A stretch of DNA of 64,000 nt, from assembly GCF_021556475.1 (NCBI RefSeq), contig NZ_JAKGBZ010000001.1, positions 124,001-188,000 of the forward strand, written 5' to 3'. Positions 7,744 to 44,282 of this stretch are shown one piece after another. Position numbers and translations under genes: made by a program. The stretch is from Acidiphilium iwatense. Its GTDB lineage: Bacteria; Pseudomonadota; Alphaproteobacteria; Acetobacterales; Acetobacteraceae. The number at the start of each line of letters is the position of its first letter. Position 1 is the first letter of the stretch. The notes beneath the pieces are model-generated. The model worked only from the letters and a program-made list of their open reading frames with translations, was not told the DNA's origin and searched no databases.

Positions 7744-8697
7744 TCATTCGAATCTCTCCCTGGGGTCGAGCAGCCCGTTCACCAGATCGGCGAGCAGATT
7801 GCCCAGCACGGTCATCACGCCGATCAGCAGCACGATCGCGGAAATCACCGGATAATCCTGCGACAAGGCCGAGCGCCACAGCAGGTAGCCGAGCCCCGGA
7901 TAGTTGAACACGGATTCGACCAGCACCGAGCCCGCGAAAATATAGGGAAAGGACAGGCCGAGAATCGTGACCAAAGGCCGCAGCGCGTTGCGCAGCACGT
8001 GGCGGAACAGCACGGCGCGGAAGGTCAACCCCTTGGCCAGCGCGGTGCGCACATAGTCCTTGCCCAGCTCCTCATGTACCGAGGAGCCGAAATAGCGCGA
8101 CAATCCGGCGACGCCGAGCAGCCCGACGGTGAGCACCGGCAGCACGAGATGCCGCGCATAGACCAGGAGGCCGGGGTTTTCGATGCGCAGATCGGTGATG
8201 CCGCCGGTCGGCAATATCCCGAGCGTCACGCTGAAATACAGGATGAAAATGGTGCCGACGAAAAATGTCGGCAGCGCGTAGAGCGAGAGTTGGAATGCGC
8301 CGATCAGCTTCGCCGGCCAGCGCCCGTAGGTGACGCCCTGGACCAGCCCGATGCCGATCGACAGCACGACCGAAAGCACGATCGCGCCGATATAGAGCGC
8401 CAGGGTGTTCGCCATGTAGTCGCCGACCAGCTGGGTGACCGGCCGGTTCAGCAGATAGGAATAGCCGAGCCGGCCCTGGAGCAGGTGCCACCACCAGATC
8501 GCGTATTGCTTCCAGAGCGGCGCCGCGAGGCCGAGGCGCACATTGAGTTCGTGGACGGCGGCGGGCGTGGCTTTCTGGCCGAGAATCGAATAGGCCGGGC
8601 CGCCGGGGGTCGCATGGGTCATCGCGAAGACGATGGACACCAGGATGACCAGCGAGAGGATGGCGGTGGCGAGCCGCGTGGTGATCATGCGCAGCAT
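7744..8697 (-). CDS. Peptide/nickel-type ABC transporter permease (DppB/OppB-like)
   Basis: A 317-aa multi-span permease of the DppB/OppB family. The N-terminal helix (about 10-28) is followed by the periplasmic segment GGPAYSILGQKATPAAVHELNVRLGL, typical of DppB proteins, and the cytoplasmic EAA-like loop VHEELGKDYVRTALAKGLTFRAVLFRHVLRNALRP. The C-terminus VNGLLDPRERFE matches the conserved D-P-R ending of this family. It forms a heterodimeric channel with the next gene and follows the first binding-protein gene by 46 bp. ATG 8697 is used; a second in-frame ATG follows at 8688. Confidence 0.9.
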   Translation of the reverse strand: MLRMITTRLATAILSLVILVSIVFAMTHATPGGPAYSILGQKATPAAVHELNVRLGLAAPLWKQYAIWWWHLLQGRLGYSYLLNRPVTQLVGDYMANTLALYIGAIVLSVVLSIGIGLVQGVTYGRWPAKLIGAFQLSLYALPTFFVGTIFILYFSVTLGILPTGGITDLRIENPGLLVYARHLVLPVLTVGLLGVAGLSRYFGSSVHEELGKDYVRTALAKGLTFRAVLFRHVLRNALRPLVTILGLSFPYIFAGSVLVESVFNYPGLGYLLWRSALSQDYPVISAIVLLIGVMTVLGNLLADLVNGLLDPRERFE

Positions 8698-30957: not shown

Positions 30958-31548
30958 CTATGTCGCGATCGCGGGAATCGTCACGCCGATCATGTCGCCG
31001 TCGCGAACGATCGCGGCGAGGCGCGCCTCGTCCCAGCCCTCGGTGCCGGCGGGGCGCAGCGGCAGCACCATCCAGCGGTAATCGGCGGTGCTGTCCACCA
31101 CCCGGAGTTTGACGGTGTCCGGCAAAACCGTGCCCCATTCGGCCAGCAGCCCGCGCGGATCGCGCACCGCCCGCGCCCGGTAGGCGGCAGATTTGTACCA
31201 GAACGGCGGATAGCCGAGCACCGCGCGCGGGTAGCAACTGCACAGCGTGCAGACCACGAGGTGATGCAGACCGGGCGTATCTTCCAGCACGCCGAGCGGC
31301 GGCAGGCCGCGCATCGGGATATCCAGCGCCTCGGCGGCGCGCGCGCCGTCGGCCAGCATCAGCGCGCGATAGGTCGGGTCCGCCCAGGCGCGGGCGACCA
31401 TGCGCGCCCCTTGCGCCGGGCCGCCGGCATCGGTCACCCGGATGCGCTCGGTGATTTCCGCGCCGGTCGCGATGGCCTTGTCGGCGAGCACGGCGCGCAG
31501 TGCCGCCAGCAGGCGGTCGGAATCGGTTTCGGTCAGGTTCATGCTCAT
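30958..31548 (-). CDS. Nitrile hydratase alpha / thiocyanate hydrolase gamma-type subunit
   Basis: A 196-aa catalytic subunit of the metal-dependent hydratase family. The claw motif CTLCSC (Cys100, Cys103, Ser104, Cys105) binds a non-corrin metal; Thr after the first Cys indicates cobalt rather than iron. The following YPPFWYKSAAYRARAVRDPRGLLAEWG matches the family. Three residues after the last Cys is Arg108 (CYPR), where cobalt nitrile hydratases usually have Trp; Arg would favour an anion such as thiocyanate. ATG 31548 overlaps the stop of the preceding gene (ATGA). The choice between nitrile and thiocyanate as substrate is open. Confidence 0.85.
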   Translation of the reverse strand: MSMNLTETDSDRLLAALRAVLADKAIATGAEITERIRVTDAGGPAQGARMVARAWADPTYRALMLADGARAAEALDIPMRGLPPLGVLEDTPGLHHLVVCTLCSCYPRAVLGYPPFWYKSAAYRARAVRDPRGLLAEWGTVLPDTVKLRVVDSTADYRWMVLPLRPAGTEGWDEARLAAIVRDGDMIGVTIPAIAT

Positions 31549-31823
31549 GCCGACTCCAGCCAGTGCTGAAAAATCTCGATCATCAGCTCGTCTCCGGTCG
31601 CATCCGGCCAGACCGCCCGTGCATCGAACCGGACGTGATAGAGCGGCACGGTCGCCGCCGGACGGGCGAAGGCGAGATCTTCGGGATTGGCGAAATCGCC
31701 GAGATGGCGCACGATTTTGCCCTCGACCCCGCGCACGTAATGCGGCGTGCGGATATGGCAGCGGCCGCGCCGCTCCGGCCAGTCGTCGCGCACCCGCACC
31801 GCCGAGCCCGGCGCGAAGATCAT
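31545..31823 (-). CDS. Nitrile hydratase beta C-terminal domain / thiocyanate hydrolase alpha-type subunit
   Basis: A 92-aa protein equal to the C-terminal SH3-like half of nitrile hydratase beta: FAPGSAVRVRDDWPERRGRCHIRTPHYVRGVEGKIVRHLG, then LYHVRFDARAVWP. In ordinary nitrile hydratases this is fused to the N-terminal half; here it is a separate gene, as in thiocyanate hydrolase and a few three-subunit nitrile hydratases. Start and stop both lie in 4-bp overlaps with the flanking genes, so the three subunits should be made in balanced amounts. Confidence 0.85.
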   Translation of the reverse strand: MIFAPGSAVRVRDDWPERRGRCHIRTPHYVRGVEGKIVRHLGDFANPEDLAFARPAATVPLYHVRFDARAVWPDATGDELMIEIFQHWLESA

Positions 31824-32128
31824 TGCTGCTCCAGGGCGCGGCGCAGCTCCGCCTCGGTGATCGCGTCCTTTTCCAGCAGGATCGCGACGATCGCGCGCAG
31901 CCAGCGCTGGTAATAGGACAGGCGATGATAGTCGGTTTCCGGCAGCGCCTCGATGCCGCGCCGCAGCTCGTCGACCGACATGATCCGCTTCTGCCCGAGC
32001 ACCTGCCGGATCGCATCGACCGTGCGGTCGAACTCGGTCAGCGCATGGGGTTCCTTGTCGACCGGCGCGCAGATGAACGGCGAGACGCCGCCAAGATCGT
32101 GCATGGCGCGTGAAGGGGATGGTTCCAT
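31820..32128 (-). CDS. Nitrile hydratase beta N-terminal domain / thiocyanate hydrolase beta-type subunit
   Basis: A 102-aa protein equal to the N-terminal helical half of nitrile hydratase beta: MHDLGGVSPF, TEFDRTVDAIRQVL, LPETDYHRLSYYQRWLRAIVAILLEKDAITEAEL. Cobalt nitrile hydratase activators of the P14K type share this fold, but its position as first gene of a three-gene overlap chain fits a structural subunit. The order N-half, C-half, catalytic subunit is the order of the thiocyanate hydrolase genes scnB-scnA-scnC. No separate activator gene is visible. Confidence 0.8.
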   Translation of the reverse strand: MEPSPSRAMHDLGGVSPFICAPVDKEPHALTEFDRTVDAIRQVLGQKRIMSVDELRRGIEALPETDYHRLSYYQRWLRAIVAILLEKDAITEAELRRALEQQ

Positions 32129-32260: not shown

Positions 32261-32986
32261 GTGAAGGCGATATCGGACCAGGCCGGCACGACAGGCGGAA
32301 ATGCGAGCGAGCATGCGGAGGAAACCCGCGCCTTGCTTCTCGATGCGGCTGAGCGCCTGTTCGTCGAACGCGGGATCGATGCGGTCAGCCTGCGCGAAAT
32401 CGTCCGGGCCGCCGGGCAGCGCAACGCCTCGGCGCTGCATTATCATTTCGGCTCGCGGGACGGCGTGCTGGAAGCCTTGATCGACCTTCGAATGCCCGCG
32501 GTGAACGCGCGCCGGCTCGCCCTCATGGCGCCGGTCATGGCGGGCAGGCGAAAACCCGCGCCGCGCCGCCTGGCGGAAGCCCTGATCCTGCCGCTCGCCG
32601 AAATCGCGGAACCCGGCAACGAGCACGGCAACTGGGTGCGGCTGGCCGCGCAGATCTATGCCAATGACAGCATCGGCTTCGCGGCTATTTTCCGGCGCAA
32701 GAACTACGACGAAGGCTTGCGCCAGGTGGGTCTGGCGCTGCGCCGCGCCCATCCCGGCGCCCCGCCGCTGCTGCTCGACCAGCGCAACATGCTCGCCGTC
32801 CGCCAGGCGGTTCACGCGCTCGCCGACTGGCAGCGCGGCGTGCTGACCCGGCAGAGCGGTGTCGCGATCATCTCCTTGCCTCTGTTCGTCGCCAATCTGC
32901 TCGACGTGACCGAGGCGATGCTGGCGGCGAAATTTTCCGCCGAAGCGCTGCGGCTGGCGCCGAAAGACGATCCTGAAATGCCTTAA
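32261..32986 (+). CDS. TetR-family transcriptional regulator
   Basis: A 241-aa regulator with an N-terminal TetR DNA-binding domain (about 22-72): TRALLLDAAERLFVERGIDAVSLREIVRAAGQRNASALHYHFGSRDGVLEAL. The C-terminal ligand domain is variable, as usual. It is divergent from the hydratase operon across overlapping promoters with repeated AT-rich motifs, and is followed by an outer-membrane channel, amidase and MFS gene. It most likely represses this island until a nitrile, amide or related compound binds. ATG versus upstream start is uncertain; position 32261 is GTG. Confidence 0.85.
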   Translation: MKAISDQAGTTGGNASEHAEETRALLLDAAERLFVERGIDAVSLREIVRAAGQRNASALHYHFGSRDGVLEALIDLRMPAVNARRLALMAPVMAGRRKPAPRRLAEALILPLAEIAEPGNEHGNWVRLAAQIYANDSIGFAAIFRRKNYDEGLRQVGLALRRAHPGAPPLLLDQRNMLAVRQAVHALADWQRGVLTRQSGVAIISLPLFVANLLDVTEAMLAAKFSAEALRLAPKDDPEMP

Positions 32987-33994: not shown

Positions 33995-34023
33995 CGGAAT
34001 TGTTCCGAATGCGGGGGATTTCG

Positions 34024-35469
34024 ATGGAACTCGGTTTCCGGTCCGCTGGCTTCGTCGCGCGCCAGATAAAAAACGGCAGGCTGTCCTGCGTGGACGCGCT
34101 GGAGTATTTCATCCGGCGGGTGGAGGCGTTCGATGGCAGGCTGAACGCGGTCGTGGTCCGGGATTTCGAGCGCGCGCGCCGGCAGGCAAGGGCGCTCGAC
34201 CGAAACCGGGCATCGCTCGATTGCCTGCCGCCGCTCTACGGCGTGCCGATGACGGTGAAGGAAAGCTTCGACGTGGCCGGCCTGCCGACGAGCTGGGGCG
34301 TCGAGGCGTTCCGCTCTAACGTCGCGGCGGACGACGCGGTCGCGGTGGCCCGGCTGAAGCGCGCGGGTGCGGTGATTTTCGGCAAGACCAACGTGCCTGT
34401 CATGCTGATGGATTGGCAAAGCCGCAACCCCGTCTATGGCGGAACCGCGAATCCCTGGGATATCGCGCGCACGCCGGGCGGCTCGTCCGGCGGGTCGGCG
34501 GCGGCGCTGGCCGCCGGGTTGACCGCGCTCGAGACCGGCAGCGATATCGGCGGGTCGATCCGCGATCCGGCGCATTATTGCTGCGTCTATGGTCACAAGC
34601 CGAGCTGGAATGTGATTCCGGCGCAGGGTCATGCCCTTGGGCCCGGCCACGCCGCGACGGATATCTCGGTGGTCGGGCCGATGGCCCGCTCGGCGGGCGA
34701 TCTCGCCCGCGCGCTGGCGGCGATGGCCGGGCCGTTGCCCACCGAACCCGGCCTCCGCCTGGTTCTGCCGAAACCGCGCGCGACCGCGCTCAAGGGGTTG
34801 CGCGTCGCGATCATGGCCGAGCATCCGCGCTGCCCGGTCGCCGCCGAAATCCGGGCGGCGTTCGCCGGGCTGGCCCACCATCTGCGCCGGGAGGGCGCCC
34901 TGGTCGACGAGGCGGCGCGGCCGGACGCCGATCTGGATGCCGGCGACGATCTGTACCGGATGCTGCGCAACGCCGCGCTGTCGGGGCGCCTGCCGGATGC
35001 GGAGGCCGAACGGCTGCGGGCCAAGCTTGCGCGTCCGCACGACCCCGAGGAGATGCAGCCGGCGCGGGACATGCTGATGGACCATCGGAACTGGCTGCGC
35101 CGTCACGAGGAGCGATGCCGCCATCGCGCGGCCTGGCGCGGGTTTTTTCGGTCTTTCGATGTCATGCTGACGCCGGTGGGCGCCACGGCGGCGCCGCTGC
35201 ACGACGATAGCGGCCCGTTATGGCGCCGGACGATCATGGTGGACGGCGAGCCGGTCAACGCCGCGCGGCAATTGTTCTGGGCCGGTCTCGCCTCGATGCC
35301 GCTGCTTCCCGCCACCGCGGCGCCGCTCGGCTTCACCGGGAGCGGGCTGCCGTTCGGCATGCAGATTATCGGCGCGCCTTACGACGACCGGACGACCATC
35401 GCGGTCGCCGGCCTGCTGGAAAAATCCTGGCTCGATTTCAGCAAGCCAGACGGATACGCCGACGGATAA
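34024..35469 (+). CDS. Amidase-signature family hydrolase
   Basis: A 481-aa amidase-signature enzyme that hydrolyses an amide to acid and ammonia. The catalytic Lys is in the segment PMTVKESFDVAG, and the Gly/Ser-rich signature GGSSGGSAAALAAGLTALETGSDIGGSIRDPAH holds the cis-Ser and the nucleophilic Ser. Length is normal. ATG 34024 is preferred: GGGGGA lies 5 bases before it, and homologues start near MELGF. Beside a hydratase of the nitrile hydratase family it would complete nitrile-amide-acid conversion; exact substrate unknown. Confidence 0.9.
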   Translation: MELGFRSAGFVARQIKNGRLSCVDALEYFIRRVEAFDGRLNAVVVRDFERARRQARALDRNRASLDCLPPLYGVPMTVKESFDVAGLPTSWGVEAFRSNVAADDAVAVARLKRAGAVIFGKTNVPVMLMDWQSRNPVYGGTANPWDIARTPGGSSGGSAAALAAGLTALETGSDIGGSIRDPAHYCCVYGHKPSWNVIPAQGHALGPGHAATDISVVGPMARSAGDLARALAAMAGPLPTEPGLRLVLPKPRATALKGLRVAIMAEHPRCPVAAEIRAAFAGLAHHLRREGALVDEAARPDADLDAGDDLYRMLRNAALSGRLPDAEAERLRAKLARPHDPEEMQPARDMLMDHRNWLRRHEERCRHRAAWRGFFRSFDVMLTPVGATAAPLHDDSGPLWRRTIMVDGEPVNAARQLFWAGLASMPLLPATAAPLGFTGSGLPFGMQIIGAPYDDRTTIAVAGLLEKSWLDFSKPDGYADG

Positions 35470-35502
35470 TACCCGCACGAAAAAATGAACAAGGAGGAAT
35501 TC

Positions 35503-37005
35503 ATGTCCATCTCGCTCTGGCGGCGCGACCTGCCGCACTACCCGGATGCCGGACCGCGACGCTTCTACCTGCTGCTGGTCGTCGCGATCACGATTTCGCT
35601 GTATTACTCGCTCTACGCGGCCAGCGGCGTGACCCCCCTGCTGCTGGCCGGATTGCATCTGCCGTTCCGCGATTTCGTGTTCATCCTTGCCGGCGGCAAT
35701 CTGGTCGGCGCCTTCGCCTCGCTGCTGGCGGGGCTGAGCGATCGGTTCGGCCGGGCCAATCTGGTCGTCTACGGACTGCTTGTGGTCGGCGTGCTGGTCG
35801 CCTTCGTGATGCCGAGCGTCACCACCGGCGCGCAATGGGCGCTCGGCTTCGGCGCGATTTCCTTCGTCGAAGGCATCATCCTGGTCGCCACCCCCGCGCT
35901 GATCCGGGATTTTTCGCCGCAGGTCGGCCGCGCCACCGCAATGGGATTCTGGACCATCGGCCCGGTGCTCGGCAGCCTCACCGTCAGCCTGGTGACGACT
36001 CTGACCTTGCCCGTCACCCGCACCTGGCAAAGCGAATACCGCATCTGCGGCGCCGTCGGCCTCGCCATGTTCGCGATCGCGTTTCTGTTCCTGCGCGAAC
36101 TGGCACCCGCCCTGCGCGACCAGTTGATGGTGAGCGAACGCGACCGCACCCTGGTCGAGATGCGCGCGAAGGGGCTGGATATCGAAGCCGGCCTGCGCAA
36201 TCCGTGGCGGCAGATGCTCCATGCGGATGTCATCGCCTCGGCGTTCGGCGTGTCGGTCCTGCTGCTGTTCTATTATACCACGGTCGCGTTCGGGCTGATC
36301 TATCTGGTCACCGTGTTCCGGCTCTCGGTGGGTGAGGCCAACGAGGTGGCGAACTGGAACTGGGCGACCAATGCGGCCGCGCTGATCCTGGCCGGCGTGT
36401 TGTCCGACCGGCTCAGGGTCCGCAAGCCGTTCATGATCCTGGGCGGGCTTGGCGGGCTGGTGTTCATCGCACTTTATCTGCTGCAGGCCGGCGGCCATCC
36501 GTCCTTCGCACGGCTCGCTTTTCTGGTCTGCGCGCAATCCTTGTTCGTCGGCTTCGCCTATGTCACCTGGATGGCGTGCTTCACCGAGACGGTGGAGGCG
36601 CGCAACCCGGCGCTGACGGCGACCGGCCTCGCGATCTGGGGCTGGCTGCTGCGGCTGGTGGTGACGGCATGTTTCCTGGCACTCCCCTTCGTCGTGAAGG
36701 CGGTGAATCCGCTGATCGAAGCGCCCTATTACATCGCGGCCTACAGGCACGCGCTGGCGGCGCATCTAGCACCCGGCGCCGCGCTGCTCGCGCATCTCGC
36801 GGCGATCAAGGCGGCGGCCGAAGCGGCGCCCGGCCAGTGGCGGAGCTGGTTCTGGATTTGCGAGGCTGGCATCGTGGTGTTTCTCGGCACCGTGTTCCTG
36901 ATGCGCGGCCGCTGGAGTCCAAAAGCCGCGCGGGCGGATGACGCGGCGCACCATGCGCAAGTGGCCCGCGAACTCGCGGCACTGCGCGATCAGCCGGCGG
37001 AATAG
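35503..37005 (+). CDS. MFS transporter
   Basis: A 500-aa twelve-helix transporter of the major facilitator superfamily. The loop between helices 2 and 3 has the signature GLSDRFGRANLVVYG, and the second-half equivalent is GVLSDRLRVRKPFMILGG. The consensus ribosome site AAGGAGG (35491-35497) lies 5 bases before ATG 35503, which decides the start over an ATG at 35485. It follows the amidase by 33 bp. Uptake of an aromatic or aliphatic acid, amide or nitrile is plausible from context; the substrate is not evident. Confidence 0.88.
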   Translation: MSISLWRRDLPHYPDAGPRRFYLLLVVAITISLYYSLYAASGVTPLLLAGLHLPFRDFVFILAGGNLVGAFASLLAGLSDRFGRANLVVYGLLVVGVLVAFVMPSVTTGAQWALGFGAISFVEGIILVATPALIRDFSPQVGRATAMGFWTIGPVLGSLTVSLVTTLTLPVTRTWQSEYRICGAVGLAMFAIAFLFLRELAPALRDQLMVSERDRTLVEMRAKGLDIEAGLRNPWRQMLHADVIASAFGVSVLLLFYYTTVAFGLIYLVTVFRLSVGEANEVANWNWATNAAALILAGVLSDRLRVRKPFMILGGLGGLVFIALYLLQAGGHPSFARLAFLVCAQSLFVGFAYVTWMACFTETVEARNPALTATGLAIWGWLLRLVVTACFLALPFVVKAVNPLIEAPYYIAAYRHALAAHLAPGAALLAHLAAIKAAAEAAPGQWRSWFWICEAGIVVFLGTVFLMRGRWSPKAARADDAAHHAQVARELAALRDQPAE

Positions 37006-38052: not shown

Positions 38053-38095
38053 ATGTATCAACTGAATAACGACAATAATGTCGGGTCGGGGGAAC

Positions 38096-39349
38096 ATGGC
38101 CAAGCCGAATCGCCGGGATATCTTCAAGATGGGCGCCGCCGCCGGAGCGACGGCAATCGCCGCCTCGGCCCGCGCCGCGGCGCAACCGGCGGCAGCACCG
38201 CCCGCCGACGATTCCTGGTCGAACGCGCTCGGCCCCGGCGTCGATTCCCGGCCCTATGGCCGGCCGTCGCGCTTCGAGAAGGATGTCGTGCGGCGCTATG
38301 TGCCGTGGCTGTCGCCGACCCGCGACGCCGATGCCAGCTTCACTCCGCTGCAGGACCAGCCGGGCATCATCACCTCTAACGGGTTGTTTTTCGAGCGCTA
38401 TCATGCGGGCCGCCCGACGATCGATCCCGACCGGTACCGGCTGATGATTTCCGGGCTGGTGCGCAAGCCACTGCTGCTCACGCTCGACCAGTTGATGCGG
38501 TTTCCCTCGGTCTCGCGCATCCATTTCATCGAATGTCCGGCCAACGGCGCGACCGAATGGCCGGCGGCCCAGCTCAATTCCCTGCAACTGACCCACGGCA
38601 TGGTCGGTTGCGCGCTCTGGACCGGGGTGAAACTGTCCACCCTGCTCGACGAGGTCGGGTTGCTGCCGGAGGCGAAATGGCTGCTCGCCTCGGGTTCCGA
38701 CGGCGCGCATATGGACCGTTCGCTGCCGCTGGAAAAATGCCTCGACGACTGCATCGTCGCCTATGGCCAGAACGGCGAGGCGATCCGGCCCGAACAAGGC
38801 TATCCGGTGCGGCTGGTGGTGCCGGGCTGGCAGGGCAACGTCAACATCAAATGGCTGCGTCAGCTCCAGCTCGGCAAAACCCCCTGGATCACCCGCGAGG
38901 AGACCAGCGAATATTCCGAATTGCTGCCCTCTGGTAAGGCGCTCGGGTTCACCTGGGTGATGGACGCGAAATCGGTCATCACCTTTCCGTGCCCGGAAAA
39001 GCCGCTGACGGGAGGGCCGGGATTCTACGAAATCCGTGGCCTGGCCTGGAGCGGTCGCGGCCGGATCAAGCAGGTCGATGTCTCGCTCGATGGCGGCGTG
39101 AACTATCGGCGAGCAAAACTCGACGAACCGGTCCTGTCCAAATGCCTCACCCGCTTCACCCTGCCCTGGCGGTGGGACGGCAAACCGGCGCTGATCCAGT
39201 CCCGCGTCACCGACGAGACCGGCTACGTCCAGCCGACCATCGCGCAGAAGCACAAATTCTGGGGCAACGACCCGGTCTACGAGAACAATTCGATCCAGAC
39301 CTGGCAGATCCTGGCCAGCGGGGCGGTGAACAATGTCCAGATCTCGTAG
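38096..39349 (+). CDS. soxC: Sulfur dehydrogenase molybdenum subunit SoxC
   Basis: A 417-aa sulfite-oxidase-fold protein. It has a twin-arginine export signal (NRRDIFKMGAAAGATAIAAS) and the molybdopterin-coordinating Cys147 in RIHFIECPANGATEWP. With SoxD it takes six electrons from the SoxY-bound sulfane sulfur. The region NIKWLRQLQLG is typical of SoxC. A C-terminal dimerisation domain contains LDGGVNYRRAKL. The GGGGG before ATG 38096 favours that start over an ATG at 38078. First gene of the sox operon, overlapping soxD by 17 bp. Confidence 0.93.
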   Translation: MAKPNRRDIFKMGAAAGATAIAASARAAAQPAAAPPADDSWSNALGPGVDSRPYGRPSRFEKDVVRRYVPWLSPTRDADASFTPLQDQPGIITSNGLFFERYHAGRPTIDPDRYRLMISGLVRKPLLLTLDQLMRFPSVSRIHFIECPANGATEWPAAQLNSLQLTHGMVGCALWTGVKLSTLLDEVGLLPEAKWLLASGSDGAHMDRSLPLEKCLDDCIVAYGQNGEAIRPEQGYPVRLVVPGWQGNVNIKWLRQLQLGKTPWITREETSEYSELLPSGKALGFTWVMDAKSVITFPCPEKPLTGGPGFYEIRGLAWSGRGRIKQVDVSLDGGVNYRRAKLDEPVLSKCLTRFTLPWRWDGKPALIQSRVTDETGYVQPTIAQKHKFWGNDPVYENNSIQTWQILASGAVNNVQIS

Positions 39350-40088
39350 CATTGCCGCCGCAGCCGTCGTGCTGGGCGCATTGCTCGGGGCGCGCGCGGC
39401 CATGGCCGGAACCCCGGTCGCGAGCACCCAGGCGCAGGATCGCGCGGTCTGGAACGCCGAAGGCGGCGCGGGCCACTACAAACCGGCCAAACCTGTGGGG
39501 TATTACGCAATCGGCACTACGCCGACGCCGGCCGAGATCGCCGGCTGGACCATCGCGATCCCGCCGAGCGGCGCCGGATTGCCGGCAGGGCAGGGCACGG
39601 CCGCTCAGGGCGAGACGATCTACGCGAGCAATTGCGCGATGTGCCACGGCACGTTCGGTCAGGGCAAGAACGGCTATCCTCAGCTTGTCGGCGGCGTCGG
39701 GTCGCTCGCATCGTCGGCGCCGGCGAAAACCGTCGGCAGCTACTGGCCCTACGCCACGACCGTCTGGGACTATATCAACCGGGCGATGCCGTTCTACGCG
39801 CCGCACACGCTGAAACCCGATCAGGTCTATGCGCTGACCGCCTATCTCCTGAACATGAACGGCATCGTGCATTCCGGCTTCGTCGCCGATGCGACAACCC
39901 TCCCGGCGGTGAAAATGCCGAACCGCGACGGATTTATCTGGAAGGACCCGCGGCCGGTGACGCATAATGCCGCCTGCATGACGCAATGTGCCAACCCGGT
40001 TACGATCAAAATCACCTCCAACGCGGCGTCGATGAACCTGACGCCGCGCCTGACCGGGCCGGTCGATCACATGAAACCCGGCAAATGA
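39333..40088 (+). CDS. soxD: SoxD-type cytochrome c, electron acceptor of SoxC
   Basis: A 251-aa exported c-type cytochrome: signal peptide (about 1-25, AAMAG), one heme-binding CAMCH (101-105) in GETIYASNCAMCHGTFGQGKNGYPQL, and a likely axial Met in AMPFYAPHTLKPDQVYALTAYLL. The fold and order match the N-terminal heme domain of SoxD. The classical Paracoccus SoxD has two hemes; this shorter form has only one CxxCH, with a Cys pair (CMTQC) near the C-terminus. It follows soxC directly. Confidence 0.88.
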   Translation: MSRSRSIAAAAVVLGALLGARAAMAGTPVASTQAQDRAVWNAEGGAGHYKPAKPVGYYAIGTTPTPAEIAGWTIAIPPSGAGLPAGQGTAAQGETIYASNCAMCHGTFGQGKNGYPQLVGGVGSLASSAPAKTVGSYWPYATTVWDYINRAMPFYAPHTLKPDQVYALTAYLLNMNGIVHSGFVADATTLPAVKMPNRDGFIWKDPRPVTHNAACMTQCANPVTIKITSNAASMNLTPRLTGPVDHMKPGK

Positions 40089-40098
40089 GGATGGTGCC

Positions 40099-40437
40099 AT
40101 GAAGAGTCTCGCGATCGCGCTGGTTCTGGGCTTTCTGCCGGTCGCGGCGCTGGCGGCGACGAAAGCGGATATCGAAGCCGGCCGGAAAATCGCGACGACG
40201 ACGAGTCTCGGCAATTGCGATGCGTGCCACATGTTCGCCGGCGCCGATGAAGCGGGAAATATCGGCCCGGAGCTGAAAGACGTGAAAACCATGATCCCGG
40301 ACCGCAAGATTTTCTACGCGATCATCTATGACGAACCGGCGCGCAATCCACGGACCCTCATGCCGCCATTCGGCAGGAACGCGATTCTGACGCCGAAGCA
40401 GATCAACGACGTCATCGACTTCATGTACACGAAATAA
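40099..40437 (+). CDS. soxX: SoxX cytochrome c
   Basis: A 112-aa monoheme cytochrome: signal peptide (1-20), CDACH at 40-44 in ATTTSLGNCDACHMF, and axial Met in PRTLMPPFGRNAILTPKQINDVIDFMY, the SoxX hallmark. It forms SoxAX with SoxA, which couples thiosulfate to the SoxY carrier Cys. The protein is shorter than many SoxX but complete. It lies 10 bp after soxD and 10 bp before soxY. Confidence 0.9.
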   Translation: MKSLAIALVLGFLPVAALAATKADIEAGRKIATTTSLGNCDACHMFAGADEAGNIGPELKDVKTMIPDRKIFYAIIYDEPARNPRTLMPPFGRNAILTPKQINDVIDFMYTK

Positions 40438-40447
40438 GCGAGGATTC

Positions 40448-40948
40448 ATGAAACACGCCGACCAGAGCAAGCCTCGTTCGCCGCGCCGCCGCGAGGTGCT
40501 TGCCGGCGCCGCGGCGGGCACCGCCGCGATGCTGATCCCTCCCGTCGCATCGGCGGCGAGCGATGCCGGAGCCGCGCAAGCCTCGATCTATCCCGCCAGG
40601 GCCTTCGCGCAGACCAGCGAAGCGGCGGCGCTGCAGGCGATGTTCGGCAAGACGCCGGCGCATTCGTCCGAGGTCAGGATGAGCGCGCCCGATATCGCCG
40701 AGAACGGCGCGGTGGTGCCGGTCGCGGTCGATGCCAATCTGCCGGATGTCACCACGATCGCGATCATGGCGATCGACAATCCCTTCACCATGGCCGCCGC
40801 CTATAAAATTCCCGCCGGAACCAGCACAGCGATTTCGAGCCGGATCAAGCTCGCCAAGACGACCAAGGTGGTCACCGTCGTCGAATCGGCTGGAAAACTC
40901 TACAGCACATCGAAGCAGGTCAAAGTCACCCTCGGCGGCTGCGGTTAG
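40448..40948 (+). CDS. soxY: SoxY sulfur carrier protein
   Basis: A 166-aa protein with a Tat signal (SPRRREVLAGAAAGTAAM) and the immunoglobulin-like SoxY domain. Intermediates are bound to the Cys of a flexible C-terminal arm. The arm here reads KVTLGGCG and stops, so the carrier Cys165 is followed by one Gly instead of the two in the usual GGCGG ending. The reading to the stop is clear in the DNA (GGCGGCTGCGGTTAG). It is partnered by SoxZ, encoded 12 bp downstream. Confidence 0.93.
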   Translation: MKHADQSKPRSPRRREVLAGAAAGTAAMLIPPVASAASDAGAAQASIYPARAFAQTSEAAALQAMFGKTPAHSSEVRMSAPDIAENGAVVPVAVDANLPDVTTIAIMAIDNPFTMAAAYKIPAGTSTAISSRIKLAKTTKVVTVVESAGKLYSTSKQVKVTLGGCG

Positions 40949-40960
40949 GAAAACGGAGCG

Positions 40961-41272
40961 ATGGCACATCAAATCCTGGTTCACGCGATGGCGGCGGGCG
41001 GCAGCACCACGGTCGAGGCGCTGGTCAAGCACCCGATGGATTCGGGTTTCGTGAAGGACAAGGCAGGCAAGCTGATTCCGCCGCATTATATCGAGGTGAT
41101 CGAGTTCACCCATAACGGCAAAGTGGTTCTCACTGGCTTCTGGGGGCCTGCGGTCTCGAAAAACCCGTTCATCAAATTCGCGTTCAAGGGCGGCAAATCC
41201 GGCGACAGCATCGGCGTGTCCTGGGTCGACAACAAGGGCGAGACGGCAAGCACGACGGCGAAGATCATGTAA
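40961..41272 (+). CDS. soxZ: SoxZ, partner of SoxY
   Basis: A 103-aa SoxZ with no signal peptide, as expected because it is exported bound to SoxY. Conserved segments are HAMAAGGSTTVEALVKHPMDSGFVKDKAGKLIPPHYIEVIEFTHNGK and GPAVSKNPFIKFAFKGGKSGDSIGVSWVDNKGE. SoxYZ presents the sulfur substrate to SoxAX, SoxB and SoxCD in the periplasm. Full length and in its normal place between soxY and soxA. Confidence 0.95.
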   Translation: MAHQILVHAMAAGGSTTVEALVKHPMDSGFVKDKAGKLIPPHYIEVIEFTHNGKVVLTGFWGPAVSKNPFIKFAFKGGKSGDSIGVSWVDNKGETASTTAKIM

Positions 41273-41309
41273 CGACAAGGCGACGCGTCGAACAAGGGAG
41301 GACCGACAC

Positions 41310-42146
41310 ATGAAATTCGCGTATCTGGCCTTGGCGCTCTTGGTCATGACGCCGGGAGCATTGGCGTCGAACAAGCCCGATCCGGCTTCCGACCTGAAGG
41401 CGTTTCAAGGCTATTTCCTCAAGCGCTTTCCGAAAATTCCGCTCGCCGCCTATGTGAACGGTCCTTATGATTTCAGTAAATCCGAGCGCGCGCAGTGGAA
41501 ACAGATCATGGAGTTTCCGCCGTATCAGTTCGCGCTCGATCACGGCAGGAAACTGTTCGAGGCCAAATTCCCGAACGGCAAAAGCTACGCCGCGTGCTTT
41601 CCGCATGGCGGCATCGGGATCGCCCAGAACTATCCGATGTTCGATCCGAAAACCGGGCGCGTAGTCACGCTCGGCATCGCGGTCAATCGCTGCCGGGTCG
41701 CGAACGGGCTGGGCAAGCTGAAACTGACCACCGGACCGATGGCCGATATTCTCGCCTACATGACCGATACCTCGCGCGGCAAGACAATCGACGTGACGGT
41801 GCCGGATAACCCGAAAGCGCTCGCGGCCTATCAGGCCGGCAAGCAATATTTCTATTCGCGGCGCGGGCAGTTGAATTTTTCCTGCGCGAGCTGCCATGTT
41901 CAGGCGGCGGGGATGCATCTGCGCGGCAATGTGCTCGCACCCGCGCTCGGCATCACCGCATCGTTCCCGCTCTACCGCTCGAAATGGGGCAATATGGGCA
42001 CGCTGGTGCGCCGCTTCATCGGCTGCAACAAGAAGGTGAGGTCGGTGCCCGACAAGCCGGACAGCGCCGCCTATCGCGATCTCGCCTATTTCCTCACCTC
42101 TATGAGCGACGGCTTGCCAATCGCGGGTCCGGGAGCGCGGCCATGA
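41310..42146 (+). CDS. soxA: SoxA cytochrome c
   Basis: A 278-aa exported cytochrome (signal 1-19). The C-terminal heme is bound by CASCH (192-196) in QLNFSCASCHVQAAGMHLRGN, and the active-site Cys ligand is Cys239 in RRFIGCNKKV. The N-terminal domain, which binds a second heme in some bacteria, has only AACFPHGG, so this is the single-heme type. With SoxX it starts the cycle by attaching thiosulfate to SoxY. The stop overlaps the next gene (ATGA). Confidence 0.93.
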   Translation: MKFAYLALALLVMTPGALASNKPDPASDLKAFQGYFLKRFPKIPLAAYVNGPYDFSKSERAQWKQIMEFPPYQFALDHGRKLFEAKFPNGKSYAACFPHGGIGIAQNYPMFDPKTGRVVTLGIAVNRCRVANGLGKLKLTTGPMADILAYMTDTSRGKTIDVTVPDNPKALAAYQAGKQYFYSRRGQLNFSCASCHVQAAGMHLRGNVLAPALGITASFPLYRSKWGNMGTLVRRFIGCNKKVRSVPDKPDSAAYRDLAYFLTSMSDGLPIAGPGARP

Positions 42147-42448
42147 AACCCATCGTCGCGATCCTGATCGCGTTAGCACTTCCGGCCGCCGCATCGGCCG
42201 CCGGTGCGACCAAGGCGAGCGCCGCTCGTGAAATCGCCCTGGCAAAACCGAAACTGCGTGTGGCGGCTTCGATGAACGACCAATGGACGCCGACGGTCGC
42301 CGCATTGAAACAGGCCGAGACAGCGGAGCGGAAGGGCGATTTCGCGACCGCGCAAGCCAAGGCGATGCGGGCGCGAAAACTCGCCGAATTGTCGATTGCC
42401 CAAGCGATGCAACAAAAGAAACTCTGGGTGAACGAGGTTCCGCGCTGA
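42143..42448 (+). CDS. Small exported SoxK/SAXB-like protein
   Basis: A 101-aa protein with a signal peptide (1-19, ASAAG) and a helical mature part: WTPTVAALKQAETAERKGDFATAQAKAMRARKLAELSIAQAMQQKKLW. Size, position straight after soxA, and the ATGA overlap match the small SoxAX-binding proteins (SoxK, SAXB) that stabilise or activate SoxAX in some sulfur oxidisers. The assignment rests on context and general pattern more than on a diagnostic motif; it has no Cys or heme site. Confidence 0.6.
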   Translation: MKPIVAILIALALPAAASAAGATKASAAREIALAKPKLRVAASMNDQWTPTVAALKQAETAERKGDFATAQAKAMRARKLAELSIAQAMQQKKLWVNEVPR

Positions 42449-42469
42449 TGTGCCGCCGGATTCGCGATC

Positions 42470-42527
42470 GTCATTGCGAGAAGCGAAGCGCCGAAGCAAT
42501 CCAATGCTTGGCTGGATTGGATTGCTT
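42470..42527. repeat. Dispersed palindromic repeat copy inside the sox operon
   Basis: Bases 42470-42503 are identical over 34 positions to the left arm of the element at 61335-61437. A shortened right arm follows: AAGCAATCCAA (42494-42504) pairs with TTGGATTGCTT (42517-42527). It occupies most of the 100-bp gap between the SoxK-like gene and soxB, where no clear ribosome site for soxB is visible. Confidence 0.75.
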
Positions 42528-42548
42528 TCAGAAAGACTTGATATAAGC

Positions 42549-44282
42549 ATGAAAACCTCCAGGCGCGGCGTGATGATCGCGGCGGGAAGCACCGCCCTGC
42601 TGCCGCGCATCGGCATCTCCGCCAGCGACCCCTACGACGTGCCGATGCGGGGCGATGTGCGGATCATTCACCAGACTGATACGCACGCCAACGCGCTGCC
42701 GGCGCAGTTCCGCGAGCCGTCGCAGAATATCGGTGTCGGCAGTGCGGAGGGCCAGCCGCCGCATCTGGTCGGCCACGCTTTCCTGAACCACTACCACATG
42801 AAACCGGGAACCCGCCCCGCTCACGCCTTCACCTTTCTCGATTTCGAAAATCTTGCGCATCGTTTCGGCCCGCTCGGCGGCTTCGCTCATCTGAAAACCG
42901 TGATCGACACGCTGCGCGCCGGCACCGGACCGGGCAGATCCCTCCTGCTCGATGGCGGCGATCTGTGTCAGGGCTCGGGTGTCGCCAATCTCACCGGCGG
43001 CCTCGACATGGTGGCGCTCGCCAACCTGCTCGGCATCGACGCGATGACCGGGCATTGGGAGTTCACCTACGGGCAGGAAGGGATTCGAAAGATCATCGCC
43101 GCCTTCAAGGGAAACTTCATCGCGCAGAACGTGTTTCTCTCCGCCGAGGCGGGAATGATGGGCAAGCCCGCCTTCGACCAGACCACCGGATCGGTGTTCG
43201 AACCCTTCATCATCCGCGCGTTGGGCGGTTATCGCCTTGGCATTATCGGCCAGGCGTTTCCCTATGTGCCGATCGCCCATCCGCGCCGCTTCACCCCGGA
43301 CTGGCGCTTCGGCATCCGCGCCGCAAACATGCAGAAACTCGCCGACGCGCTGCGCCGGAAACACAAGGTCGATGCCGTGCTCCTGCTGTCGCATAACGGC
43401 ATGGAAGTCGATCTCAAGCTCGCGTCCGAGGTTAGCGGGATCGACATCATTCTGGGCGGCCACACCCATGACGCGGTGCCGGTCCCGGTTCTGGTCAGGA
43501 ATGCCGGCGGCAAGACGATCGTGACCAATGCCGGCACGGCGGGCAAATTCGTCGCCGTGCTCGATCTCGACCTCGCCAGGGGCAAGCTCAAGGATCTGCA
43601 TTACCGGCTGATGCCGATCTATACTGACATGATCAAACCGGACCCTGCCGTATCGAAGGCGATCGACACCTGGTCCGCGCCGCACCGGGCCATGCTCGGC
43701 GAAAAGCTCGCCGAGGTGGACGATCTTCTGTACCGGCGCAATAATTTCTACGGCTCGGTCGACCAGGTCATCATGGATGCGATGCGCGAGGAGATGGACG
43801 CCGAAATCGCCTTTTCGCCCGGTTTTCGCTGGGGCAATTCCTATCTGTCCGGCACCGATTTCACCATGGGCGATCTGCTGAGCGAAACCGCGATCACCTA
43901 CCCGATGGCCTATACCCAGATGATGACGGGCGCTTCGATCAAGGCGATGATGGAGGATGTCTGCGACAATCTGTTCAATCGCAACCCCTATTATCAGCAG
44001 GGCGGCGACATGATCCGCGTCGGCGGCATGAACTATGCCTGCGCGCCGCGCCGGTCGATCGGCCATCGCATCTCGGACATGGCGCTCGACAACGGCAAGC
44101 CGATCGAACCGAACAAGAGCTACAAGATCGCGAGCTGGGCCTCGGTGACCCTGCCGCAGACCGGCAAGCCGATCTGGGACATCGTCGCCGCCAATCTGAA
44201 GCGCAAGAAAACCATCCGCATCGGCAAACCCAATCAGGTGAAACTGATTGGCGTCGCGGGCAATCCGGGTTACGCTGCCTGA
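42549..44282 (+). CDS. soxB: SoxB thiosulfohydrolase
   Basis: A 577-aa dimanganese hydrolase that releases sulfate from SoxY-bound sulfonate. It has a Tat-like signal (SRRGVMIAAGSTALL) and metallophosphatase motifs: HQTDTHANALP (Asp44, His46), LLDGGDLCQGSG, the SoxB-specific TGHWEFTYG, LLSHNGMEVD and GGHTHDAVP. The 5'-nucleotidase C-terminal domain includes SVDQVIMDAMREEMDAEIAFSPGFRWG. An extension upstream of ATG 42549 would be translated from the repeat element, so this start is used. The stop overlaps the next start by one base. Confidence 0.95.
   Translation: MKTSRRGVMIAAGSTALLPRIGISASDPYDVPMRGDVRIIHQTDTHANALPAQFREPSQNIGVGSAEGQPPHLVGHAFLNHYHMKPGTRPAHAFTFLDFENLAHRFGPLGGFAHLKTVIDTLRAGTGPGRSLLLDGGDLCQGSGVANLTGGLDMVALANLLGIDAMTGHWEFTYGQEGIRKIIAAFKGNFIAQNVFLSAEAGMMGKPAFDQTTGSVFEPFIIRALGGYRLGIIGQAFPYVPIAHPRRFTPDWRFGIRAANMQKLADALRRKHKVDAVLLLSHNGMEVDLKLASEVSGIDIILGGHTHDAVPVPVLVRNAGGKTIVTNAGTAGKFVAVLDLDLARGKLKDLHYRLMPIYTDMIKPDPAVSKAIDTWSAPHRAMLGEKLAEVDDLLYRRNNFYGSVDQVIMDAMREEMDAEIAFSPGFRWGNSYLSGTDFTMGDLLSETAITYPMAYTQMMTGASIKAMMEDVCDNLFNRNPYYQQGGDMIRVGGMNYACAPRRSIGHRISDMALDNGKPIEPNKSYKIASWASVTLPQTGKPIWDIVAANLKRKKTIRIGKPNQVKLIGVAGNPGYAA

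Follow-up and report, generated by a model that had tools for sequence, protein, structure and literature searches.

The three-gene operon at positions 30958 to 32128 of the window, the stretch of 64,000 nucleotides of Acidiphilium iwatense analysed here, most likely belongs to a widespread clade of three-subunit cobalt nitrile hydratases (NHases), an enzyme type for which Streptomyces and Microvirga have published examples. Its product is probably a cobalt-type enzyme of (alpha, betaC, betaN)2-like composition, in which the beta chain is divided into an N-terminal (betaN) and a C-terminal (betaC) subunit. In the preliminary description the same operon had been taken for a candidate thiocyanate hydrolase (SCNase). 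The NHase reading is favoured because the catalytic chain scores higher with the NHase profile than with the SCNase profile, because the trees and a topology test separate it from the SCNases, because the SCNase marks are absent and two second-shell residues of NHases are kept, and because an activator gene is absent while gene order and subunit masses match those of published enzymes. Points against it are the score of alpha under the NHase cut-off, an arginine at the position of SCNase gamma136 and the fact that no cobalt transporter was found near the 35 window-clade loci, nor NicO or CbtA in the genome.

Table 1 Features of the hydratase operon and its surroundings (positions in the window)
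Feature	Coordinates	Strand	Remarks
alpha (catalytic) gene	30958..31548	-	196 aa, 21.2 kDa; PF02979, E 5.5e-71; motif VCTLCSCYPR
ATGA overlap betaC/alpha	31545..31548	-	from the sequence
betaC gene (C-terminal half of NHase beta, AnhE-like)	31545..31823	-	92 aa, 10.6 kDa; PF02211, E 3e-17
ATGA overlap betaN/betaC	31820..31823	-	from the sequence
betaN gene (N-terminal half of NHase beta, AnhD-like)	31820..32128	-	102 aa, 11.7 kDa; PF21006, E 1e-16
TetR-family regulator, divergent from operon	32261..32986	+	PF00440, E 8e-14; possible regulator
Amidase, divergent, 1.9 kb from operon	34000..35469	+	PF01425, E 6.6e-100; candidate partner
sox cluster, soxC-(soxD position)-X-Y-Z-A-B	38078..44282	+	NCBIfam: six of seven genes above curated cut-offs

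The Pfam matches of all three hydratase chains lie above the curated cut-offs, and the only PF02979 match of the window genome is alpha. In betaN the equivalents of Arg52 and Glu56 are conserved, and betaC carries the motif HIRTPHYVRG including the His147 equivalent. The split into three genes with two ATGA overlaps, as first described, is therefore borne out by the coordinates and by Pfam, and the cobalt-type motif was likewise read correctly (CTLCSCYPR in alpha). In the clade of loci to which the window belongs (window clade), the betaN gene ends in ATGA at 22 of 32 loci and in GTGA at 8, the window's own locus being counted; since these ends recur across the 32 loci, the overlapping layout is not due to chance. 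Relatives in named genomes number 308; in the best 80 of them arginine always follows CYP, and beta is split in all 78 that were assessable. The titles of 64 of the same best 80 of 308 give Rhodospirillales, Acetobacteraceae or genera of the Acetobacteraceae, which suggests Acetobacteraceae as the family.

With the NCBI profiles the alpha chain stays below both cut-offs, the NHase score being the higher one: 210.6 bits with the NHase model (cut-off 249.85; TIGR01323/TIGR03888 test) vs 174.4 bits with the SCNase gamma model TIGR03887 (cut-off 291.45). The two beta halves reach 59.0 and 58.6 bits, below the NHase beta cut-off of 152.2 in the same TIGR01323/TIGR03888 test. The plasmid-borne SCNases of Roseomonas marmotae and Azospirillum ramasamyi score 359.2 and 356.8 bits with the SCNase model, and its cut-off was reached by none of 385 genomes of the class and 398 of the phylum, two overlapping draws.

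Arg136 of the gamma subunit and Arg90 of the beta subunit of SCNase have a role in substrate choice. In the PDB alignments CYP is followed by tryptophan in wild-type NHases and by arginine in SCNase 2dd4_C, and the reciprocal chains are also present (arginine in NHase 3vyh, tryptophan in SCNase 3vyg). The replacement of this tryptophan by arginine, noticed from the start, is thus real and is shared with SCNase; it is found in 35 of 35 members of the window clade, and arginine or lysine occupies the position in 50 of 51 other members of the Arg/Lys-type group. Natural variants with CYPH (L083, L087) and CYPF (L064, L086) occur in NHases with fused beta. An SCNase identity deduced from Arg136 together with a split beta was considered and rejected, both features being common to most of the Arg/Lys group.

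Four marks of SCNase were defined after viewing the four sequences of the SCNase clade, two of which are near-identical: arginine at beta90, a distance of 50-52 residues from AWxD to the metal motif (a loop insertion of 9-11 residues), the motif SPxWY and the lack of proline in HxRxP. Each of these marks is present in 4/4 members of the SCNase clade and in 0/35 of the window clade. Arginine at beta90 is also absent from the other Arg/Lys-type (0/51) and the Trp-type sequences (0/40); the window has leucine there, and leucine or methionine is found in 33 of the 35 window-clade members. The AWxD-to-motif distance is 41 residues throughout the window clade (35/35), and two of 40 Trp-type sequences have distances of 45 and 62. 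SPxWY occurs elsewhere in 1/51 other Arg/Lys-type and 2/40 Trp-type sequences, and the HxRxP motif with its proline, kept in the window clade, was not found in 2/51 other Arg/Lys-type sequences. Furthermore, the equivalents of Glu56 and His147, located by alignment to the Pseudomonas putida NHase, are kept in 35/35 members of the window clade, as against 0/4 and 1/4 of the SCNase clade, respectively. Both are important second-shell residues of NHase according to an excerpt of the source (PMC8278588).

The phylogenetic analysis agrees with this picture. An alpha tree of 140 rows, from which the Arg/Trp column and second-hit fragments in L026, L048, L106 and L128 had been removed, sets the Arg, Lys and Val sequences apart by a branch with an SH-aLRT value of 99. 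A more careful tree was calculated from betaN, betaC and alpha of 59 rows, selected by hand from 89, without the two pocket columns. It separates the Arg/Lys type from the rest (100/100) and contains an SCNase clade (100/100) and the window clade (100/100). The SCNase clade comprises 2dd4, the two plasmid SCNases and L025, whose membership rests on the tree; it is joined at 93/96 to a group from Streptomyces, Microvirga and Rhizobium (L091, L094, L095, L099 and L028), with the window clade outside. The earlier guess of a distinct subgroup therefore holds in the concatenated tree: the window clade, mainly from Acetobacteraceae, stands separately within the larger Arg/Lys-type group that also contains SCNase, and includes on a long branch a locus from a plasmid of Agrobacterium rubi (L097). 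In the AU test on the careful tree, a constraint uniting the window clade with SCNase was rejected (p = 0.0065). The constraint was not rejected in two earlier AU tests, for which the trees had been searched quickly and less thoroughly (p 0.705 and 0.681); both times the tree from the constrained search was superior to that from the free search. The phylogeny proposed in the preliminary description does not group the operon with SCNase; judged by the careful tree, a common clade is not supported, the quick-tree results being noted as a caution.

The split of beta separates the types imperfectly. Among 134 classified rows, 88 of the Arg/Lys/Val group are split and 2 fused, and 7 of the Trp group (W, H, F) are split and 37 fused; six loci with betaN fused to alpha and without betaC were excluded from these counts. 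The state changes four times on the tree. Since the two fused cases of the Arg/Lys group are plasmid SCNases and seven Trp-type loci are split, a split beta is neither required for SCNase nor specific to it. The types also differ in the activator: within 3 kb of the hydratase genes, a separate ORF resembling an activator and read from the same strand accompanies 40 of 41 Trp-type loci vs 2 of 89 Arg/Lys-type loci, these two being the plasmid SCNases. A search of the window genome with the PF21006 profile (E up to 1), which matched 3/3 canonical activators and 0/2 P15K-like ones tested, gave betaN as its one match, and no separate activator gene of the canonical kind was found by it. The three features that mark a three-subunit NHase, namely beta encoded in N and C genes in the order N-C-alpha, no separate activator gene, and a cobalt-type motif (CTLCSC) with NHase second-shell residues, are all found here.

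Some further arrangements were seen in the course of these comparisons. In L106, L116, L122, L129, L132 and L133 betaN is fused to alpha, and no betaC was found in the same orientation at a distance of up to 2.5 kb; the three translations that were viewed (L106, L116, L129) have a His-rich linker, and the fusions recall the His-rich beta-alpha fusions of eukaryotes. In the annotated SCNases of L092 (6933-7784) and L093 (6940-7791) the alpha and beta subunits form one protein of 283 aa, and both loci are plasmid-borne with transposases nearby. The Trp-type loci with split beta (L002, L004, L007, L008, L010, L015, L069) have the order alpha-betaN-betaC-activator. A search of the window genome with a P15K-like protein gave three weak matches and one strong match, a 48-aa piece (L263, about 8001-8144; C113:115761-115904, minus strand) that shares 60% identity with the C-terminal region of an SCNase activator resembling P15K. 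It adjoins a truncated frame whose translation resembles an IS3-type OrfA, and no SCNase beta or gamma was matched in the 16 kb around it. The piece may be the relic of a true SCNase locus.

In the reaction proposed for the window enzyme, following what is established for the family, alpha would bind Co(III) via CTLCSC, whose second and third cysteines would be oxidised to sulfinic and sulfenic acid, respectively, and a nitrile bound at the cobalt would react with water to give the amide. By analogy with the Streptomyces canus enzyme ScNHase, as presented in an excerpt of PMC7329996, betaN would be both the structural half of beta and a chaperone for cobalt and self-subunit swapping, so that a separate activator gene would be unnecessary. 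The arginine after CYP and the leucine at the site of SCNase betaArg90 would place the pocket between those of classical NHases and SCNase.

The surroundings of the operon allow more specific readings. The operon might supply an NHase to a local nitrile pathway together with the amidase and an MFS transporter at 34000-37005, under TetR control, which is a possible reading but an unlikely one. The nearby amidase, which had been considered as the partner of a split NHase, is indeed present, and in L097 an amidase gene of the same orientation as the operon ends some 50 bases ahead of the first beta gene, an adjacency that favours a path from nitrile via amide to acid in that locus. Amidases were also found near 3/34 other Arg/Lys-type and 5/21 Trp-type loci. 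However, only 2 of 35 window-clade loci, namely the window and L097, have an amidase nearby and the other 33 are without it, and none occurs within the 6-kb flanks of the best 80 of 308 named loci; the amidase, TetR and MFS genes of the window are moreover divergent from the operon. No relative of the TetR gene was found beside the other 33 long window-clade loci or the best 80 named loci. For the amidase counts L097 was placed in the window clade, and L160, which duplicates the window's locus, was not counted among the others. Cobalt transporters are near 0/35 window-clade, 7/34 other Arg/Lys-type and 1/21 Trp-type loci, and searches for NicO and CbtA gave no match in the window genome.

Upstream of 14 of 34 window-clade loci (e.g. 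L101, L123, L137) ThiF/MoeB-, DsrE- and SH3-like genes lie on the same strand. They were discarded as a functional hint, being absent beside the window operon, and were treated as marking an ancestral location; a DsrE query, run without a positive control, found no match in the window genome.

Alternatively, the enzyme might hydrate a cyano compound that is small and either charged or polar, such as cyanoacetate, a cyano-amino acid or cyanamide, with the pocket arginine as specificity element. The constancy of this arginine in the window clade, and of arginine or lysine in the remaining group, would suit such a role, as would the presence of PF02979 in 152 of the 249 family genomes; nevertheless this substrate is doubtful, because the published relatives, taken as such from gene order, act on neutral nitriles according to an excerpt of PMC7329996. 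A further variant, which appears quite unlikely, regards the Acetobacteraceae clade as a separate hydratase with a substrate of its own rather than a general NHase; its half-way pocket (alpha Arg, Leu at the betaArg90 site) would accept a small cyano compound of anionic or polar character. This might even be thiocyanate, its use then having arisen by a second evolutionary route.

A thiocyanate hydrolase, whose pocket arginine would bind the anion and whose products carbonyl sulfide and ammonia would feed the sox system and the nitrogen supply, draws on the arginine at gamma136, the split beta and the neighbouring sox genes. The sox operon, which had been noted about 6 kb away, is certainly there: it starts 5.95 kb from the hydratase operon and its layout is complete, with a cytochrome gene at the soxD position. 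A functional link read from this position does not stand, however, as among 86 family genomes in which both PF02979 and SoxZ were located, on contigs that are often short, the two lie within 90 kb in one, the window's own (10.0 kb), and the next-closest pair is 97.6 kb apart. SoxC was found at 1 of 34 window-clade loci, again the window, 5 of the 34 ending near contig edges upstream. Co-occurrence across 249 family genomes speaks more in favour of thiocyanate, SoxZ being present in 102/143 genomes with the Arg-type hydratase vs 26/106 (odds ratio 7.7; nine genomes, judged from E-values to have the Trp type only, were left out). A urease control co-occurs as well, in 111/143 vs 48/106 genomes (odds ratio 4.2; from a list of 187 matches, the 159 with E-values better than about 1e-30 were counted), and the SoxZ odds ratio is 4.9, a rough value for part of the genomes, among those of known size of at least 3.5 Mb, so that a link may exist. 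Because the urease control co-occurs too, much of the sox co-occurrence is attributed to an effect of clade or genome size. Five of the best 80 of 308 named relatives (L185, L191, L199, L212, L231) bear SCN18 or SCNpilot titles, which we take to be MAGs from thiocyanate reactors, a share that stands without a background rate. With beta90 Arg, loop insertion and SPxWY absent, the HxRxP proline and Glu56 kept, a common clade rejected in the careful tree and a gene order equal to that of published three-subunit NHases, the original claim of a thiocyanate hydrolase is very unlikely to be right, and the sequences lend little support to SCNase activity of the operon product.

For annotation, a thiocyanate hydrolase cannot safely be recognised by its split beta, its gene order or CYPR. 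In at least one published survey the SCNase set was built, according to an excerpt of the paper, by an HMM with a filter on E-value and length (PMC10098168), and a filter of this kind may take in the window-type group. Inspecting the four marks, namely beta90, the length of the loop, SPxWY and the proline of HxRxP, would help to tell true SCNases from similar enzymes. Experimental tests of the Acetobacteraceae clade were not found in the open-licence literature that was searched.

Among the known systems, the SCNase of Thiobacillus thioparus (PDB 2dd4) shares with the window operon the split beta and the motif CTLCSCYPR with Arg136. Unlike the window enzyme it has betaArg90, the loop insertion and SPxWY, and it has lost the proline and Glu56. 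Its subunits of 243, 157 and 126 aa are longer than those of the window, as the first reading had stated, and it has the activator P15K. The classical cobalt-type NHases of P. putida (3qxe) and P. thermophila (4ob1) have in common with the window the PF02979 chain and the equivalents of Arg52, Glu56 and His147; they differ in having tryptophan for arginine, a beta chain encoded mostly by one gene (37/44) and a separate activator (40/41 loci).

Also comparable are three published enzymes, ScNHase, the toyocamycin NHase and the NHase of Microvirga flocculans, which would belong to the Arg/Lys group as judged by gene order alone; each is cited here from an excerpt of its source. In the plasmid NHase of M. 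flocculans two beta genes flank alpha according to a review (PMC11573777), and split beta and cobalt type are common to it and the window operon. A similar arrangement with betas on either side of alpha is seen in L091, L094 and L096, and the group of L091, L094, L095, L099 and L028 adjoins SCNase in the tree, unlike the window clade. The toyocamycin NHase of S. rimosus is an (alpha beta gamma)2 enzyme with subunits of 21.2, 10 and 11.4 kDa (PMC8574189), which the window subunits of 21.2, 10.6 and 11.7 kDa match in a comparison of size alone; it differs in its substrate, which is, judged by the enzyme name, a nucleoside antibiotic. ToyJ alone has been reported to be active (PMC7329996).

The third of these enzymes is ScNHase of S. 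canus CGMCC 13662, which, in the excerpt of PMC7329996, has the gene order anhD-anhE-anhA with AnhD and AnhE as the beta halves, lacks an activator gene, uses AnhD as a metal and self-subunit-swapping chaperone, and is active on ACE (acetamiprid) as well as on THI and BN, taken here to be thiacloprid and benzonitrile, respectively. As a stand-in for S. canus the Streptomyces locus L095 was used, which has lysine at beta90, where 33 of 35 window-clade members have leucine or methionine, and which has a cobalt transporter in its neighbourhood, unlike the window-clade loci. It has a CYPR motif and a histidine at position 21 of betaC, and His21 is named for AnhE of S. canus in an excerpt of PMC13243292, which hints that ScNHase may be of the Arg type; the Glu56 of AnhD is not at residue 56 of the annotated betaN of L095. 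With ScNHase itself the window operon shares the order betaN-betaC-alpha, the split beta, the cobalt type and a layout without a separate activator gene (PMC7329996, excerpt).
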